Origin: an uncultured Bacteroidota bacterium
Lineage (GTDB): Bacteria > Bacteroidota > Bacteroidia > UBA4408
Assembly (NCBI GenBank): GCA_903842515.1
Contig: CAIMMJ010000127.1
Span: 1-34,679, forward strand
Direction of reading: 5' to 3'
DNA length: 34,679 nt
Below are positions 17,835-28,397 of this stretch, in pieces; the first letter of the stretch is position 1; the number at the start of each line of letters is the position of its first letter. Position numbers and translations under genes: made by a program. Under the pieces are notes generated by a model, which ran no database searches, had not been told where the DNA came from, and saw only the letters and a program-made list of their open reading frames with translations.

Positions 17835-20800
17835 ATGAAAAGATCGAACTTCAAAAAGAACGAAAATGTAAATTCAATAACAAATGATACTGAATTTTAT
17901 AAATCAATCTTTGATTCATCTTTGCAAAACAAAGTAATTGTAGAAAACGGAATAATTATAGAAATAAACGACAAAGCACTAGAAAATATTTCTTCTAGTA
18001 AAGAAAACGTTATCGGAAAAAAATTAAGCCACTACTTTCCACAACTTCAGCCCGACGGTGAGCAATCTCTTGCAAAATCTCGGAGAATATTTAAACAGGT
18101 TGTGCAAAATAAAATTAATCAGTTCAGTTGGAAAGTTCTAAATCCACCCAATAAAAACTATGAAATAGAAGTAAATTTAAATTATATTAAGTACAACAAC
18201 CGTAAATTTTTTATTTATAATTTTTTCTTTGTTCAAACCAACACTAACTTCGATTTTTATTTAAACAGAATAAGAAACAGTTATAATTTTTTTATTGATT
18301 TTTTTACAGATGCAGCTATTATTCATAAAAAAGGAGTATTAATAACTTGCAATGCTGCTGCAGCACAAATTTTAGAAGCAAACACTATTCAAGAATTAAA
18401 TAATTATAATTTATTTAGTTTGTTGTTGCCCGAATACGTAAATAAGGCTGCGGAAAGGCTAGCTATTGTTGAAAAAGGAGGAAATGTAACATTTTCTGAC
18501 TATAAAATTAGAACCCTAAAAAACAATATAAAAACAGTAGAGTTAAAGTCCCTGTCAATAAATCAAATTGGAAAAGATGAAACACTTATGTTGGCCAAAG
18601 AAGTTATTGAAAACACCGACTTGCTTGAGAAAGAAATTTTTAAAAACAAAGAATTAGAAAATGTAGTAAAGCAATTAAAAGAGGTGCTTGTTCAAAAATA
18701 CGATACACAAATTGAGCTTACTAATTCTCAAAGGGTTGTTAGAAGTATTATAAACAGCTCTATTGACATTATTATTGCTTCGGATGAAAACGGTATCATA
18801 TCAGAATTTAACAATGCAGCACAAAATGTTTTTGGCTATAAAAAAGAAGAAGTAATAGGTAAATCAGTTGCTATGCTTTACGCCGGACCCGAAGAAAAAA
18901 TAAAGGTAAACAATGCACTAAACGAAACGGGTTTTTTTTCGGGAGAAATATTAAATAAAAGAAAAGATGGAGAAATTTTTACAAGTTATTTATCCCTTTC
19001 CGAAATGGTTAACGAAACAAATTCTTTTATTGGTAGAGTAGGCGTAAGCAGAGACATTACAGTTGAAAAAATTCAACAACAAAAACTTATAGATTCCGAA
19101 GAAAGATACAGAGAAATTGTTGAAAGCACCTCCGACTTAATTTTTAGTTTTACCCTCAACGGAAAATTTATTTTCTCTAATAATTCATTTTCAAATTCAT
19201 TAGGATACAGTCTTCAAGAATTAGAAAATACAACAATCAATCAAATAATACATCCGGAATCTTTAGCAACATTTAACCAAGAGATAAAAAAAATAGTGGT
19301 AAGCTCCAAGCAAATAAATTTAGAATTACCATTTGTAAAAAAGGACAGGAAATTATTAATTGCACAAGGAATTTTGAGTTGCAAAAAGAATGAAAAAAAT
19401 GATTTTGTTTTTTTAGCCAGCTTTAAAAATATATCGGAACAAAAACTAGCCGAAGAAAAAATTAAGCTAAGTGAAGAAAGATACAAAGCCGTATTTGCTC
19501 AAGAATTTTTAGGCATTGCTATATTAGATGTTTTTGGAAGAATTCAACAATTAAACAATACATTCTGCCATGTTTTAGGATATACAGAGCGTGAAATGTT
19601 GTTGATGAACATTATAGATTTAACACATCCCGAAGACAAAGAAAAAACAACAGAAATAAATAGGCTCTTTTTAAATTTAAAGCAAACAAAAATAACCGAA
19701 GAAAAAAGATTAATTCACAAGTTGGGTTCTGTTGTTTATGGCAATGAATCGTGGTCGGTTGTTAACGACAACAAAGGAAATCCCGATTATTTTATCTTGT
19801 TTTTTGAAGACATCACAGAAAAGAAAATAGCACAAAGGAAGTTTTTAGAACAATCAGCAAAATTAAAAGCTATTTTCCAAAGCACATCCCAATCAATAAT
19901 CACCGTAAATAGTAAGTATGAACTTACTTCATTCAACGATTATTTTAGCAAGGGATATAAAAACCTTTCAGGTTTGGAACCGCAAGAAAATTTAAAAATT
20001 CTTGAATTTTTACTCCTTATTCTTGGAAAAGAACAAACAAAATCTTTTAAAAATTACCACCAACGTGCTCTACTGGGTATTCCGCAGCAGTTCGAAAAAA
20101 GTGTAAGTTTACCCAATGGTCAAACAATATGGCTAGATTTTTATATCGACCCAATTATTGTGCCTGATAAACGCATAGAAGAAGCCTCTTATATTGTTCA
20201 TGATATCACAGATAAAAAACTCAATGAGGATCAAATAAAACAATCGTTGCAGGAAAAAGAAATACTACTCAAAGAAGTACACCACAGAGTAAAAAACAAC
20301 CTACAAGTTATATCAAGTATATTAAAACTTCAAAGTCATTATATAAAAGATGAAGCCGCCTTAGAAACTCTCAAGGAAATTCAAAATAGAATAAAATCTA
20401 TGGCTTTGATTCACGAAAATTTGTATCAAAACAAAGATTTGTCTCATCTTAATTTTGGCGAATACATTGCAAATCTTGTTCAAAACCTAGTATACACTTA
20501 TAATTCAAGTAAAAAAGAAATTGAAGTTTTAATGGATGTAGATGATATTTTCTTGAATTTAGATTATTCAATTCCTTGTGGTTTAATTATTAATGAATTA
20601 ATTTCCAACTCTTTAAAGCATGCATTTACGGAATCGGAAAAGGGAACTATAAAAGTTATTTTTAAAAAGCATGCCGATTTAGTACATTTGAGCATTGAAG
20701 ATGATGGAAAAGGATTTAATAAAAAAATAGATTTTAGAAATACCGATTCTCTTGGTTTGCAATTGGTGATGGCATTGGTAGATCAAATTAATGGTACAAT

Positions 20801-20864
20801 AGAACAAAAAGCACAAAAAAATAAAGGAACTATTTACACTATAGAATTTAAATACGATAAATAA
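17835..20864 (+). CDS. Soluble multi-PAS sensor histidine kinase, HisKA_2 type
   Basis: Repeated PAS/PAC segments (e.g. NSSIDIIIASDENGIISEFNNAAQNVFGYKKEEVIGKS...GVSRDITVEK), H-box LLKEVHHRVKNNLQVISSILKLQSHY, N-box LIINELISNSLKHAF, G-box DDGKGF. No TM segment evident. Confidence 0.92.
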   Translation: MKRSNFKKNENVNSITNDTEFYKSIFDSSLQNKVIVENGIIIEINDKALENISSSKENVIGKKLSHYFPQLQPDGEQSLAKSRRIFKQVVQNKINQFSWKVLNPPNKNYEIEVNLNYIKYNNRKFFIYNFFFVQTNTNFDFYLNRIRNSYNFFIDFFTDAAIIHKKGVLITCNAAAAQILEANTIQELNNYNLFSLLLPEYVNKAAERLAIVEKGGNVTFSDYKIRTLKNNIKTVELKSLSINQIGKDETLMLAKEVIENTDLLEKEIFKNKELENVVKQLKEVLVQKYDTQIELTNSQRVVRSIINSSIDIIIASDENGIISEFNNAAQNVFGYKKEEVIGKSVAMLYAGPEEKIKVNNALNETGFFSGEILNKRKDGEIFTSYLSLSEMVNETNSFIGRVGVSRDITVEKIQQQKLIDSEERYREIVESTSDLIFSFTLNGKFIFSNNSFSNSLGYSLQELENTTINQIIHPESLATFNQEIKKIVVSSKQINLELPFVKKDRKLLIAQGILSCKKNEKNDFVFLASFKNISEQKLAEEKIKLSEERYKAVFAQEFLGIAILDVFGRIQQLNNTFCHVLGYTEREMLLMNIIDLTHPEDKEKTTEINRLFLNLKQTKITEEKRLIHKLGSVVYGNESWSVVNDNKGNPDYFILFFEDITEKKIAQRKFLEQSAKLKAIFQSTSQSIITVNSKYELTSFNDYFSKGYKNLSGLEPQENLKILEFLLLILGKEQTKSFKNYHQRALLGIPQQFEKSVSLPNGQTIWLDFYIDPIIVPDKRIEEASYIVHDITDKKLNEDQIKQSLQEKEILLKEVHHRVKNNLQVISSILKLQSHYIKDEAALETLKEIQNRIKSMALIHENLYQNKDLSHLNFGEYIANLVQNLVYTYNSSKKEIEVLMDVDDIFLNLDYSIPCGLIINELISNSLKHAFTESEKGTIKVIFKKHADLVHLSIEDDGKGFNKKIDFRNTDSLGLQLVMALVDQINGTIEQKAQKNKGTIYTIEFKYDK

Positions 20865-20869
20865 AAGTT

Positions 20870-21622
20870 ATGTCAAAATTTAATATAATGGTAGTTGAAG
20901 ACGAAAGCATAGTTGCTAAAGATATTCAACAGAGTTTAAAAAAATTAGGCTACAATGTAGTAGATGTTTGTTCTACAGCCGAAGCAGCTATTGTATCGGC
21001 AAAAGAAAAAAAGCCCGATTTAATTTTAATGGACATCATGCTAAAAGGAGAAAAAAGTGGAATTGATGCAGCAGAAGAAATTAAAAGCATAATAAGCGTG
21101 CCAATAGTTTTTTTAACTGCCTATGCAGATGAAAGTACTTTGAACAAGGCAAAAATTACAGAACCTTACGGTTATATTATTAAACCATTTAAAGAAATAG
21201 AATTGCATACTACAATAGAAATGGCAATCTATAAACACAATAAAGTAAGCGAGGTAAAAAAAGAAAGAGATTTGTTTTTTTCAATGATAGAAAATCAATC
21301 AACCAACGATATGATTTTTATCAAATCTAACTCCAAGTTCATCAAATTAAAAACAGACGAAATTTGTTATGTTGAGGCATTGAAAGATTACGTTACAGTA
21401 AATACTCCCACCGCAAAATATACTATTCACACCACTATGAAAGACATAGAAAATAAGTTGCCTTCTAATCAATTTATTAGAGCTCACCGTTCTTTTATTG
21501 TTCGCATGGATAAAATTAAAGCAATAGACAACCCTAGTTTAATTATGGAGCCCGACAATAAAATTATTCCTATTGGTGGTTCTTACAAAGATACTTTGTT
21601 GCAAAAACTTAATATGCTTTAG
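20870..21622 (+). CDS. Response regulator with LytTR DNA-binding domain
   Basis: Receiver MVVEDESIVAKDIQQSLKKLGY...LILMDIMLKGEKSGIDAAEEI...VFLTAYADESTLNKA...YGYIIKPF; C-terminal LytTR IKSNSKFIKLKTDEICYVEALKDYVTVNT...FIRAHRSFIV. Confidence 0.93.
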   Translation: MSKFNIMVVEDESIVAKDIQQSLKKLGYNVVDVCSTAEAAIVSAKEKKPDLILMDIMLKGEKSGIDAAEEIKSIISVPIVFLTAYADESTLNKAKITEPYGYIIKPFKEIELHTTIEMAIYKHNKVSEVKKERDLFFSMIENQSTNDMIFIKSNSKFIKLKTDEICYVEALKDYVTVNTPTAKYTIHTTMKDIENKLPSNQFIRAHRSFIVRMDKIKAIDNPSLIMEPDNKIIPIGGSYKDTLLQKLNML

Positions 21623-22666: not shown

Positions 22667-23554
22667 TTAAATTTTCTTTAGGATATAAATTTGGCTCGAA
22701 TAAGAATTGTTTCCTTTTGATGCAGCCTTAATGTTAGAAATTAAACCTATCCAAAATGCTTTTACTATACCGCCAGCTTTATATTTTTCGCTGAGCATAC
22801 TTACATAAAAAGAATCAAAAACCATGGGTAAGGTTCTCTCTACTTCTAATCCGTGCTTCTTTGCCAAATTTTCTATGTCTGTTGGCCTAAAATGATAAAG
22901 ATGACGTGGTACATCCAAGGCTGCCCAAAACTTGTTGTAATGCTTAAAATCATAGCTTGTGATATTAGGTACAGCAATCAATAATTTTCCTTTAGGGTGC
23001 AGTGCAGCAATTAATTTTTCTAAAGAAGAATTTAATTCATGAATGTGTTCTACTACATGCCAACAAGTAACAACATCGTAGTTGTTGGATAATGAGTTTA
23101 GTTTGCTTAAATCTGCTATTCTCTCCTCTCCTATTTTGCTTTGTGCTAATTTTCTGGCACCTTCATCCGGTTCCAGGCCATTTACCTCCCATTTTACGTC
23201 GTGCAGAATTTTAATAAAGTCTCCTGTTCCGCAGCCGTAGTCCAGTATTTTTCCTGTTTTTTTTCCACTTATTTGAACAACTAAATTTAGTTTTTTCCAC
23301 AGTGTATATTTTTTTACTAATTGATATATACTATTAATAAAGCCCTTGTTTGAATCGTTGTGCGAAACATAGTCCTCTGATTGGTAGTATTTTCCTATTT
23401 CTGTTGCGCCTGGTCTAGGAGTAGTAAATTTAAATCCACAAGATTCACATTCTACAATGGTAAAATCTTCTTTTGATACCGAGTGATCTTTGACTTTTAT
23501 AAATTGTTTGAGTTTATTACTCTCACAAATAGGGCAGTTGGATAGGTTTTGCAT
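22667..23554 (-). CDS. Class I SAM-dependent methyltransferase with N-terminal zinc-ribbon-like motif
   Basis: CPICESNKL..., CESCGFKFTTPRP, then ILDYGCGTGDFIKILHDVKWEVNGLEPDEGARKLAQ, DVVTCWHVVEHIHE, PRHLYHFRP. Confidence 0.88.
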   Translation of the reverse strand: MQNLSNCPICESNKLKQFIKVKDHSVSKEDFTIVECESCGFKFTTPRPGATEIGKYYQSEDYVSHNDSNKGFINSIYQLVKKYTLWKKLNLVVQISGKKTGKILDYGCGTGDFIKILHDVKWEVNGLEPDEGARKLAQSKIGEERIADLSKLNSLSNNYDVVTCWHVVEHIHELNSSLEKLIAALHPKGKLLIAVPNITSYDFKHYNKFWAALDVPRHLYHFRPTDIENLAKKHGLEVERTLPMVFDSFYVSMLSEKYKAGGIVKAFWIGLISNIKAASKGNNSYSSQIYILKKI

Positions 23555-23663: not shown

Positions 23664-25520
23664 ATGAAAAATTCTTACGATGTAATTGTAGTTGGTGCAG
23701 GCCATGCTGGTTGTGAATCTGCTGCTGCTGCTGCCAATATGGGCAGTAAGGTTTTGCTCATTACCATGAACATGCAAACTATTGCTCAAATGAGTTGCAA
23801 TCCTGCTATGGGTGGCATTGCCAAAGGACAAATTGTTAGGGAGATTGATGCATTAGGAGGATACTCTGGTATTGTTTCTGATAGCAGTGCAATTCAATTT
23901 AGAATGCTTAATTTATCAAAAGGTCCTGCCATGTGGAGCCCAAGATGCCAAAGCGATAGAATGAGATTTGCCGAGCAGTGGCGTTTGATGCTAGAGAATA
24001 CTCCAAATGTAGATTTTTGGCAAGACATGGTAAGTGAAATTATTGTTGAAAATGATAAAGCAGTGGGTGTAAAAACAAGTCTTGGAATAGAGTTCCATTC
24101 CAAAGCAGTTGTGCTCACAAACGGTACATTTTTAAACGGGGTTATTCACATCGGCGAAAAACAATTAGGCGGAGGTAGAAGTGGAGAAAAGGCAAGTAAA
24201 GGCATTACTGAACAACTAATTTCACTTGGTTTTGATTCTGGTAGGATGAAAACCGGCACCCCGCCAAGAATAGACGGAAGAAGTCTTGACTATTCCTTTA
24301 TGGAAGAACAGGCAGGAGATGAACATCCGGGTAAATTTAGTTTTACGGATACAAAACCATTAACTAAACAATTGTCCTGTTGGATTACTTATACAAACGA
24401 TGAGGTACACGATATTTTAAAAACAGGATTCGATCAATCGCCCATGTATCAAGGCAGAATTCAGGGATTAGGTCCAAGATATTGTCCATCTATAGAAGAT
24501 AAAATTACTCGCTTTGCAGAACGTAACCGTCATCAATTATTTATTGAGCCTGAGGGATGGAACACTGTAGAGATTTACTTAAACGGATTTAGTACTTCAT
24601 TGCCTATGGAGGTACAGCAAAAAGCTCTGGAAAAAATACCTGGGTTCAAGAATGCTAAAATGTTTAGACCTGGTTATGCTATAGAATACGATTACTTCCC
24701 TCCTACTCAGTTAGACTTAACACTTCAAACAAATAAAATTGAAAACCTATATTTTGCAGGTCAAATAAATGGTACAACAGGTTATGAAGAAGCAGCTTGC
24801 CAAGGATTTATGGCAGGAATTAATTCTCACCTCAAAATAAATAGTCTTCCACCTTTTATTTTATCAAGAAGCGATGCATACATAGGGGTATTAATAGACG
24901 ATTTGGTTACCAAGGGTACTGATGAACCTTACAGAATGTTTACCTCTAGGGCGGAATATAGGATTCTGCTTAGGCAAGACAACGCAGATATCCGGCTTAC
25001 CCAAAAAGGGTTTGATTTGGGATTAATTTCAAATGAAAGATACACTGCTTTTCAAGAAAAGCTTGCAAATATCACAACTATTGTAAAAGCAATTAAGGAA
25101 ACAAGCGTTTCTCCAGAAGAGATGAACACTAATCTGGAAAGTGTAGGTAGTGCTCCTATTGTTCAAAAGGTAAAAGCAGCGAGTGTTTTAAGCAGGCCCA
25201 ATGTTAGCCTTAAAGAGTTTGCCAATGCAGATGTTTATGCTTCAATAAATGTTTTTTCTATAGAAGAACAAGAACAAGCCGAAATAGATATAAAATACAG
25301 CAGTTATATACAAAAGGAACAAGACGCTGCTATAAAGCAGAGTCAAACAGAGAACATTAAAATTAGATCAGATATAGATTTTAAAAACATTGTTTCACTA
25401 AGTTCAGAAGCCAAGGATAAATTTAGTAAAATTAAACCTCAAACAATTGGCCAAGCTGCACGTATTTCCGGTATTTCACCAGCAGACATTTCTGTTTTGA
25501 TGATTCATTTAGGTAGGTAA
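23664..25520 (+). CDS. mnmG: tRNA uridine-5-carboxymethylaminomethyl modification enzyme MnmG/GidA
   Basis: YDVIVVGAGHAGCESAAAAANMGSKVLLITMNMQTIAQMSCNPAMGGIAKGQIVREIDALGG...GRMKTGTPPRIDGRSLDYS...GQINGTTGYEEAACQGFMAGIN...MFTSRAEYRILLRQDNAD. Confidence 0.97.
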   Translation: MKNSYDVIVVGAGHAGCESAAAAANMGSKVLLITMNMQTIAQMSCNPAMGGIAKGQIVREIDALGGYSGIVSDSSAIQFRMLNLSKGPAMWSPRCQSDRMRFAEQWRLMLENTPNVDFWQDMVSEIIVENDKAVGVKTSLGIEFHSKAVVLTNGTFLNGVIHIGEKQLGGGRSGEKASKGITEQLISLGFDSGRMKTGTPPRIDGRSLDYSFMEEQAGDEHPGKFSFTDTKPLTKQLSCWITYTNDEVHDILKTGFDQSPMYQGRIQGLGPRYCPSIEDKITRFAERNRHQLFIEPEGWNTVEIYLNGFSTSLPMEVQQKALEKIPGFKNAKMFRPGYAIEYDYFPPTQLDLTLQTNKIENLYFAGQINGTTGYEEAACQGFMAGINSHLKINSLPPFILSRSDAYIGVLIDDLVTKGTDEPYRMFTSRAEYRILLRQDNADIRLTQKGFDLGLISNERYTAFQEKLANITTIVKAIKETSVSPEEMNTNLESVGSAPIVQKVKAASVLSRPNVSLKEFANADVYASINVFSIEEQEQAEIDIKYSSYIQKEQDAAIKQSQTENIKIRSDIDFKNIVSLSSEAKDKFSKIKPQTIGQAARISGISPADISVLMIHLGR

Positions 25521-26117
25521 AAAACTTATCCTTTTTTCATGGTATATTATCATGTTTGGTATTACGATATGCAATACCTATACCCATTATCTCAATAAAT
25601 TACATTATAGTTTTGCTCATTTCCATTTGCCCTTAGCTGACCATTTTCTTCGTTGTAGCAAATAGTAAGTGTTTAATAGATTTTATTTATTACTCTATTT
25701 GAAATTACACAGTTTTTCTGATCGCAGGGGTATGCCTGTATTTAACCCTTCTTGCGAATAATTTGTACTGCATAATCTTCTTCCTTTTTTTGCTTCTTTA
25801 GGGCATGGATGCAATTACAGTGTGGTTAAGAACCTTGAAAATATTTACTCTTATTTTCGTTGTATAATTCTAATATACTTTTAGTAATTCTTGTATGGTA
25901 TTAGATTCCTTAAATCTATATATCACGCTTGCTTGTTGGCCAAAACAAACTAGTTAAATTGATAATTATAAATCATATAAATTTACCAACTATTATCTAG
26001 GCATAAACAGAAAGTATAATACGATGTTTTTTAAACATTATTTGAGTATATTTGTCACTCATTTTATATGAAAAACATTCACTTTTTTATTAAATAAACA
26101 TTAAGAACAATTGTTTA

Positions 26118-26133
26118 TGTTTCACGTGGAACA
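26118..26133. promoter_or_regulatory. parS-like ParB/Spo0J binding site, copy 1
   Basis: TGTTTCACGTGGAACA; its reverse complement TGTTCCACGTGAAACA is the classical parS 16-mer. Confidence 0.9.
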
Positions 26134-26242
26134 TTTTTTGTTTTTAAAGAACATTATTGTTTTTTTATTCATATAAATTATATAAGTTATTGAAAATAAG
26201 ACAAATAAAGATTTAAATTTAAGAATTTCAAATTTTTTTATT

Positions 26243-26258
26243 TGTTTCACGTGGAACA
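26243..26258. promoter_or_regulatory. parS-like ParB/Spo0J binding site, copy 2
   Basis: Second identical TGTTTCACGTGGAACA, same orientation, 125 bp from copy 1. Confidence 0.9.
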
Positions 26259-27029
26259 AAATGTTTTAACTTGTTTTTTCAAGAAAAAACCGTTTAAAGG
26301 CCCAATAAAACATGTTTTTTTAAATAAATATTCCAAACCTGACAATTTATTTAGGGTTTAACATAAAGTTTTAGTATCAAGAAAACAAACAAAAAACTAA
26401 TAACAATACGCCAATATTGTGTTTTAAGGTAAAATAAATATTTAAAATAAATAATTGTATTTTTTAAGTTTCAGTGCTCATAAACAAATTCTTCCCAAAT
26501 TTTATTTTGATAAATTCTGGCTCCTGATTTTTAAATGCGATACTGCCAAGTAGAACAATAAAAATTAATTAGTGGAAGTTAATTTTCCCAACTCTCCGCA
26601 GCCAAGAAATGTTGTTAGGGTGTTTGTATGACTACGAAATAGTGGCAGAAGCTTTGCAACTGAACTTCGGCGAATCATTGGCGATAAATTCATATTAAAA
26701 ACCAAGTTGCATTCTGCTTCAGCGTATTTTTTATTGATAGGCTACAATGTACTTTAGAATCAGAGGAAGAAGAAAATGGGTGATTTGATAAATGTTTTAT
26801 CTAGTTCAATAATAGCAGTTGTATCATGCCGCCGCGGCGGAGTTCACAAAAAATGCACAAAGTTCCCCAAAGAAGTAGTTGTGTTGGGATTGGCGAAGGA
26901 GTGATGATGTTTGATGGAATTAGTTCTATTACTATTCCTTGATAGCGTTCACAAAGAAGGCCAAAGAATTACAAATAAGGAAATGGTGGAAGAATAAATA
27001 TAGGCTTATTGATTTGGAGTAGGAAAACC

Positions 27030-28397
27030 CTACCCAAAAATCTCGCCCAGCACCGCAGTAATATCTCTGGCAGGTATAATTGATAGTCCGTCTGCAATAA
27101 AATCGGCTTTGAATTGTGGTGCAGGAATAACAATTTTGGTGAATCCCATTTTATAAGCTTCCTTAATTCTTTGTTCTAACCCTAAAACACCCCTAATTTC
27201 TCCTCCTAAGCCCACTTCTCCAAATAGGCAGTATGATTTGTCAACCGCCACGTCTTCGTTGCTGGAGAGGACAGAAATGGCAACGGCCAAATCTATGGCG
27301 GGGTCGTTTATTCTAAATCCTCCGGTAATGTTCATAAAAACATCTTTTTGGCCCAACTTAAAGCCACATTTTTTTTCTAAAACAGCCAACAATAAATTCA
27401 ATCGTTTTGCATCAAAACCATTGGCTACTCTCTGCGGCATTCCATAAACCGCCGAGCTAACAAGGGCTTGAACTTCCAACAAAAAAGCTCTATTGCCTTC
27501 CAAAACGGTTGTAATTACACTTCCACTTAAATTATTGTTTTGCTCAAATCCCGACAGAAAAAATGTACCGGGTTTTTGCACTTCGTTCAATCCATCGGGT
27601 TTCATTTCAAAAACACCAATTTCAAACGAATTCCCAAATCTGTTTTTTAAGGTTCTCACAAGTCTATACAGGTGATTTCTATCTCCTTCAAACTGCAAAA
27701 CGGTGTCCACTAAATGCTCCAAAACTTTTGGCCCTGCTATGTTTCCTTCTTTATTGATGTGTCCTATTAAAAACAGTGGAATATTTCTTCCCTTGCAAAA
27801 TTCAATCAATTTGTAGGAGCATTCCCTTACTTGCGAAACCGAGCCCGGAGAAGATTCTATTTCTGGATTAAATAATGTTTGAATGGAATCAATTACCATT
27901 AAATCGTATGGATTTTTACTGGCTTGTTCAATAATTGAATTCAAATTAGATTCGCTGTAGATGTATAATCCCGAATTGTCGGAATATTCTTTAAGCCTGT
28001 TAGCTCTTAGTTTAATTTGTTCTTCGCTTTCTTCGCCCGAAACGTACAAAACATTTTTTCCCTGATAAGCCATCGCCGCTTGCAATAGGAGAGTAGATTT
28101 CCCTATGCCGGGCTCACCTCCAATAAGAACGGCGCTTCCTGCAACTACTCCACCACCTAACACCCTGTCTAATTCCGACATTCCGGTAGAAGTGCGGGTA
28201 CTATTTTTGCTTTCTATTTGAGAGAGCAACACAGGGTTTTTTTTGTTAGTATCGGCAATGGTTTTTAGGCCACTGCTTTTAGTTTTTACTTCTTCTACAA
28301 AGCTATTCCACGAACCACATGAGCTGCATTTTCCCAACCATTTGGCGGAGTTAAAGCCGCAACTCTGACACACAAATACCGAGCTGTTTTTTGACAT
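27030..28397 (-). CDS. radA: DNA repair protein RadA
   Basis: VFVCQSCGFNSAKWLGKCSSCGSWNSF, GGEPGIGKSTLLLQ, KNRFGNSFEIGVFEM (KNRFG), Lon-like C-terminal domain. Confidence 0.96.
   Translation of the reverse strand: MSKNSSVFVCQSCGFNSAKWLGKCSSCGSWNSFVEEVKTKSSGLKTIADTNKKNPVLLSQIESKNSTRTSTGMSELDRVLGGGVVAGSAVLIGGEPGIGKSTLLLQAAMAYQGKNVLYVSGEESEEQIKLRANRLKEYSDNSGLYIYSESNLNSIIEQASKNPYDLMVIDSIQTLFNPEIESSPGSVSQVRECSYKLIEFCKGRNIPLFLIGHINKEGNIAGPKVLEHLVDTVLQFEGDRNHLYRLVRTLKNRFGNSFEIGVFEMKPDGLNEVQKPGTFFLSGFEQNNNLSGSVITTVLEGNRAFLLEVQALVSSAVYGMPQRVANGFDAKRLNLLLAVLEKKCGFKLGQKDVFMNITGGFRINDPAIDLAVAISVLSSNEDVAVDKSYCLFGEVGLGGEIRGVLGLEQRIKEAYKMGFTKIVIPAPQFKADFIADGLSIIPARDITAVLGEIFG

Follow-up and report, generated by a model that had tools for sequence, protein, structure and literature searches.

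Downstream of the mnmG (gidA) gene of an uncultured Bacteroidota bacterium lie two identical 16-bp palindromes that resemble parS, the chromosomal binding site of ParB. The locus raises the question of whether these sites are a centromere and, if so, of what kind. An earlier note, made from the sequence alone, took them for parS sites beside gidA and proposed a stand-alone segregation locus. We consider it highly probable (roughly 0.95) that the two sites are the ordinary, probably origin-proximal parS centromere of a chromosomal ParABS system. The parS reading is supported because the sites match the consensus exactly, parS is linked to mnmG across Bacteroidota and the genome codes for a ParB of the cognate type. 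On these grounds the first part of the earlier proposal holds.

The locus and its two sites

The analysed stretch of DNA (34,679 nt, hereafter the window) lies on contig C127 of a draft assembly (3.18 Mb, 93% complete, 440 contigs). Its relevant features are as follows:

22667..23554, minus strand: SAM-dependent methyltransferase, a relative of which holds and adjoins the parS pair in genome G005
23664..25520, plus strand: mnmG/gidA, tRNA uridine 5-carboxymethylaminomethyl modification enzyme (Pfam GIDA, E=3.6e-163)
25521..27029, no strand: intergenic region holding both sites, 1.5 kb from mnmG to the radA-like gene, AT-rich (28.5% G+C)
26118..26133, plus strand: parS site 1, exact TGTTTCACGTGGAACA
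26243..26258, plus strand: parS site 2, exact TGTTTCACGTGGAACA, in the same orientation as site 1
27030..28397, minus strand: radA-like DNA repair ATPase (KaiC-type ATPase, Zn ribbon and ChlI/Lon_C matches)

The last gene was named after radA because of the order of its domains (KaiC-type ATPase, Zn ribbon, ChlI/Lon_C). Measured from the stop codon of mnmG the sites are 0.6 kb away; the convergent radA-like gene ends 0.8 kb from them. Searches of the intergenic region for a hidden gene or structured RNA found none: it has no open reading frame of at least 80 amino acids, matches no Rfam family and lacks a terminator-like site. Elsewhere in the window, positions 17835-21622 code for a large protein whose translation looks like that of a multi-PAS sensor histidine kinase; the adjoining gene codes for an apparent LytTR-type response regulator, likewise read from its translation.

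Sequence searches confirmed the identical pair, with a start-to-start distance of 125 bp. The reverse complement of TGTTTCACGTGGAACA is the B. subtilis-type site TGTTCCACGTGAAACA, and both copies match the 16-bp parS consensus TGTTNCACGTGAAACA exactly on the reverse strand, with the CACGTG core intact. The sites are rare in the genome and clustered. When one mismatch was allowed, the two window sites were the sole matches in the entire draft genome, so that scattered copies, which would have spoken against a centromere, were not seen. Two mismatches added a single match, AGTTTCAAGTGGAACA, in which the CACGTG core is broken. The earlier view that such a pair is very unlikely to arise by chance is borne out by the expected number of exact copies, about 0.001 per 3.18-Mb genome on both strands given its base composition. 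Within the window, five matches with up to three mismatches were found against 0.27 expected from dinucleotide shuffles, four of the five being the two sites counted on both strands. Local duplication was rejected as the origin of the pair, as the flanks of the two sites are no more alike than nearby AT-rich DNA.

Conservation of parS beside mnmG in Bacteroidota

We compiled parS sites in 60 genomes: the present one, nine others of its family and 50 of its class. Sites whose CACGTG core is intact are present in 46 of the 60 genomes, and 38 of these 46 have one within 3 kb of mnmG, while none of the 12 core-broken control matches falls within that distance. No linkage to mnmG is seen in the remaining eight site-bearing genomes; in some of these the contig stops or no mnmG was identified. 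Four genomes (G005, G016, G037 and G048) have the site and mnmG on one contig at least 43 kb apart. We also examined 80 Bacteroidota mnmG loci. A site with at most two mismatches occurs inside the fetched stretch at 53 of them. With a degenerate consensus and at most one mismatch, the same loci hold 113 near-consensus sites no more than 1.5 kb from the gene (225 kb of sequence) versus eight farther out (484 kb), and the reversed control pattern gave no sites at all. The position of parS is thus conserved across relatives and much of the class. Our literature search, in which surveys of parS distribution were partly covered, found no direct report of parS with gidA/mnmG in Bacteroidetes.

An intact-core site and mnmG are both present in eight other members of the family, and adjoin each other in six. 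G002 has the site immediately upstream of the gene; G004, G006, G007, G008 and G009 have it 10-66 bp downstream. In G001, which belongs to the genus of G005, the site and mnmG are on separate contigs. The spacing of paired sites was also considered as a conserved feature and rejected, since the distance within pairs of other genomes can be as short as about 35 bp or as long as 1.9 kb. One genome, G042, carries an array of seven parS-like sites at about 99-bp spacing (contig C24, 13202-13810) and further parS-like sites on contigs C28, C40 and C43; no relative of the ParB described below was found in it at E=1e-15.

Linkage to a gene might also be expected if the palindromes were operators of a transcription factor controlling mnmG or radA. 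The sites are intergenic and in many relatives lie within 70 bp upstream of mnmG, as operators might. However, their side relative to mnmG varies: they are found upstream, downstream, on both sides or even inside genes. In the window itself they lie well beyond the ends of both flanking genes, mnmG and the radA-like gene. An informative case is G005, where one site of the parS pair (L191, 8341-8356 and 8484-8499) is inside a methyltransferase gene and the other immediately upstream of it, with mnmG 60 kb away. This gene shows 48% identity with the window's methyltransferase gene, next to mnmG, and 58% identity with its counterpart next to mnmG in G009, and one of the G005 sites is translated in frame, the protein reading ...TVSRETF... 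The sites therefore follow the chromosomal neighbourhood and not mnmG transcription. Because the G005 sites stay with the methyltransferase neighbourhood although mnmG is 60 kb off, the arrangement is the one expected of a centromere and not of an operator. The motif, moreover, is that of the parS consensus, and the genome codes for a cognate ParB; we regard operators as very improbable.

ParA and ParB of this genome

The observation that the window contains neither parA nor parB is correct for the window and does not extend to the genome. A ParA-ParB pair is encoded once, on contig C312, with ParA directly upstream of ParB. In a genome search a single protein scored above the ParB_N cut-off (E=3.7e-34), and it also has the HTH_ParB and ParB_C domains. 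A lack of ParB, which like scattered copies would have argued against the earlier note's reading, is thus not seen. A ParB relative was detected in 57 of the 60 genomes searched, and in nearly all of the genomes listed the sites and parB are on different contigs. A stand-alone segregation locus, for instance a relic or a locus dependent on a foreign ParB, would account for a window devoid of parA and parB. It is nevertheless hard to reconcile with one ordinary chromosomal parA-parB pair in this genome, with the near-ubiquity of ParB relatives and with the separation of parS from parAB as the usual arrangement among the listed genomes. This part of the earlier proposal is abandoned; there is only a very slight chance that it is right. 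Since the pair is on C312, the locus does not stand alone, and ParA and ParB would be supplied in trans.

Compared with solved structures, C312 ParB matches ParB, Spo0J and Noc, down to 1e-50, and the top-scoring match is Noc. In Caulobacter ParB, R173 and G201 contact parS; they are reported to be absolutely conserved in ParB and replaced by Gln and Arg in Noc (PMC7383237). Arg182 and Gly210 of C312 ParB align with these two residues, and the two variable positions are Tyr188 and Lys193. Accordingly, at the equivalents of the NBS (Noc) residues Q173, K179, K184 and R201, C312 ParB has R, Y, K and G. Judged by its residues, its specificity is of the parS type. The protein also carries the GERRFRA box, which binds CTP in the ParB family. 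Sites for Noc-type nucleoid occlusion are thus the least probable alternative: the best structural match speaks for them, and the Arg and Gly in place of Gln and Arg, the parS CACGTG core and the ParB gene adjoining a ParA gene speak against them.

No match to ScpA was found in this genome, which in a 93% complete draft is weak evidence of absence. Two SMC_N matches exceeded the cut-off, in frames of 558 and 381 amino acids, which we read as too short for a full SMC protein. No recognisable SMC-ScpAB condensin is therefore seen in this assembly. Given the missing ScpA and the short SMC_N frames, the SMC-loading role of ParB may be absent here or served by something else.

Position relative to the replication origin

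In this draft parS, parAB and dnaA fall on three contigs (C127, C312 and C422). The GC skew of the window has no clean switch at the sites, and its profile appears to follow gene direction. DnaA boxes are not enriched (159 near-matches versus 154.7 expected), and for this reason we place no oriC in the window. A near-complete member of the class, G043, is more informative. Sampled 20-kb stretches of its contig C2 show negative skew on one side of parS/mnmG and positive skew on the other, the sign changing somewhere from about 1.32 to 1.355 Mb, where parS/mnmG is located (1.347 Mb). Its dnaA, at 0.92 Mb, is 426 kb from parS/mnmG and well within the negative-skew side. In two members of the same family, G004 and G005, the skew around the sites is noisy and its sign changes weakly, too weakly to decide.

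Previous work provides a context for these data. Sites of the parS type are most often near the origin, and a single site often suffices for segregation (PMC7333895; PMC7022226). The gidA gene is among those that tend to lie near origins (PMC2099444). A Hi-C study that included two Bacteroidetes among its 12 gut species placed parS clusters at the replication origin and cautioned that dnaA is not always a marker of it (PMC10197239). By analogy, the two sites are probably near the replication origin in this genome as well. One may extend this to a broader scheme, in which the mnmG/parS point marks the functional origin across the phylum, parS is kept in the neighbourhood of mnmG but away from parAB and sometimes also from dnaA, and in members like the present one ParB acts independently of SMC-ScpAB. 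We put this scheme forward tentatively, at somewhat worse than even odds.

Proposed mode of action and comparison with known systems

Characterised ParABS systems serve as the model for binding, clamp sliding, segregation and origin proximity alike. By this analogy, ParB from C312 would bind each 16-bp palindrome, load CTP, close as a clamp and slide into adjacent DNA. The ParA ATPase encoded beside it would then pull the ParB complexes away from each other and so separate the freshly replicated origin regions. The two sites may represent redundant loading points.

The locus resembles the chromosomal parS of ParABS (Soj/Spo0J) systems in the identical 16-mer (as the reverse complement), the few clustered copies, the proximity to an origin-associated gene, and ParA and ParB each encoded once. 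It differs from them in that the contig with parAB is not the one with the sites and mnmG. A further difference from B. subtilis is that ScpA was not found, and SMC-ScpAB loading may not apply. Another close parallel is with the parS clusters of gut Bacteroidetes (PMC10197239). These belong to the same phylum and are reported at the origin, dnaA being an unreliable marker, and the authors likewise found no known condensin in their Bacteroidetes. Those species, however, are host-associated and have contact maps, whereas the present locus is known from sequence alone; linkage to mnmG was not seen in the part of that study on which we draw.

Taken as a parS centromere, the locus is a normal bacterial one: it represents no new system and leaves the known picture of chromosome segregation unchanged. 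It indicates a canonical parS/ParB pair in a little-studied Bacteroidota family. Moreover, draft genomes of this phylum, in which dnaA can be misleading, can be searched for parS next to mnmG as a simple marker of the probable origin region.
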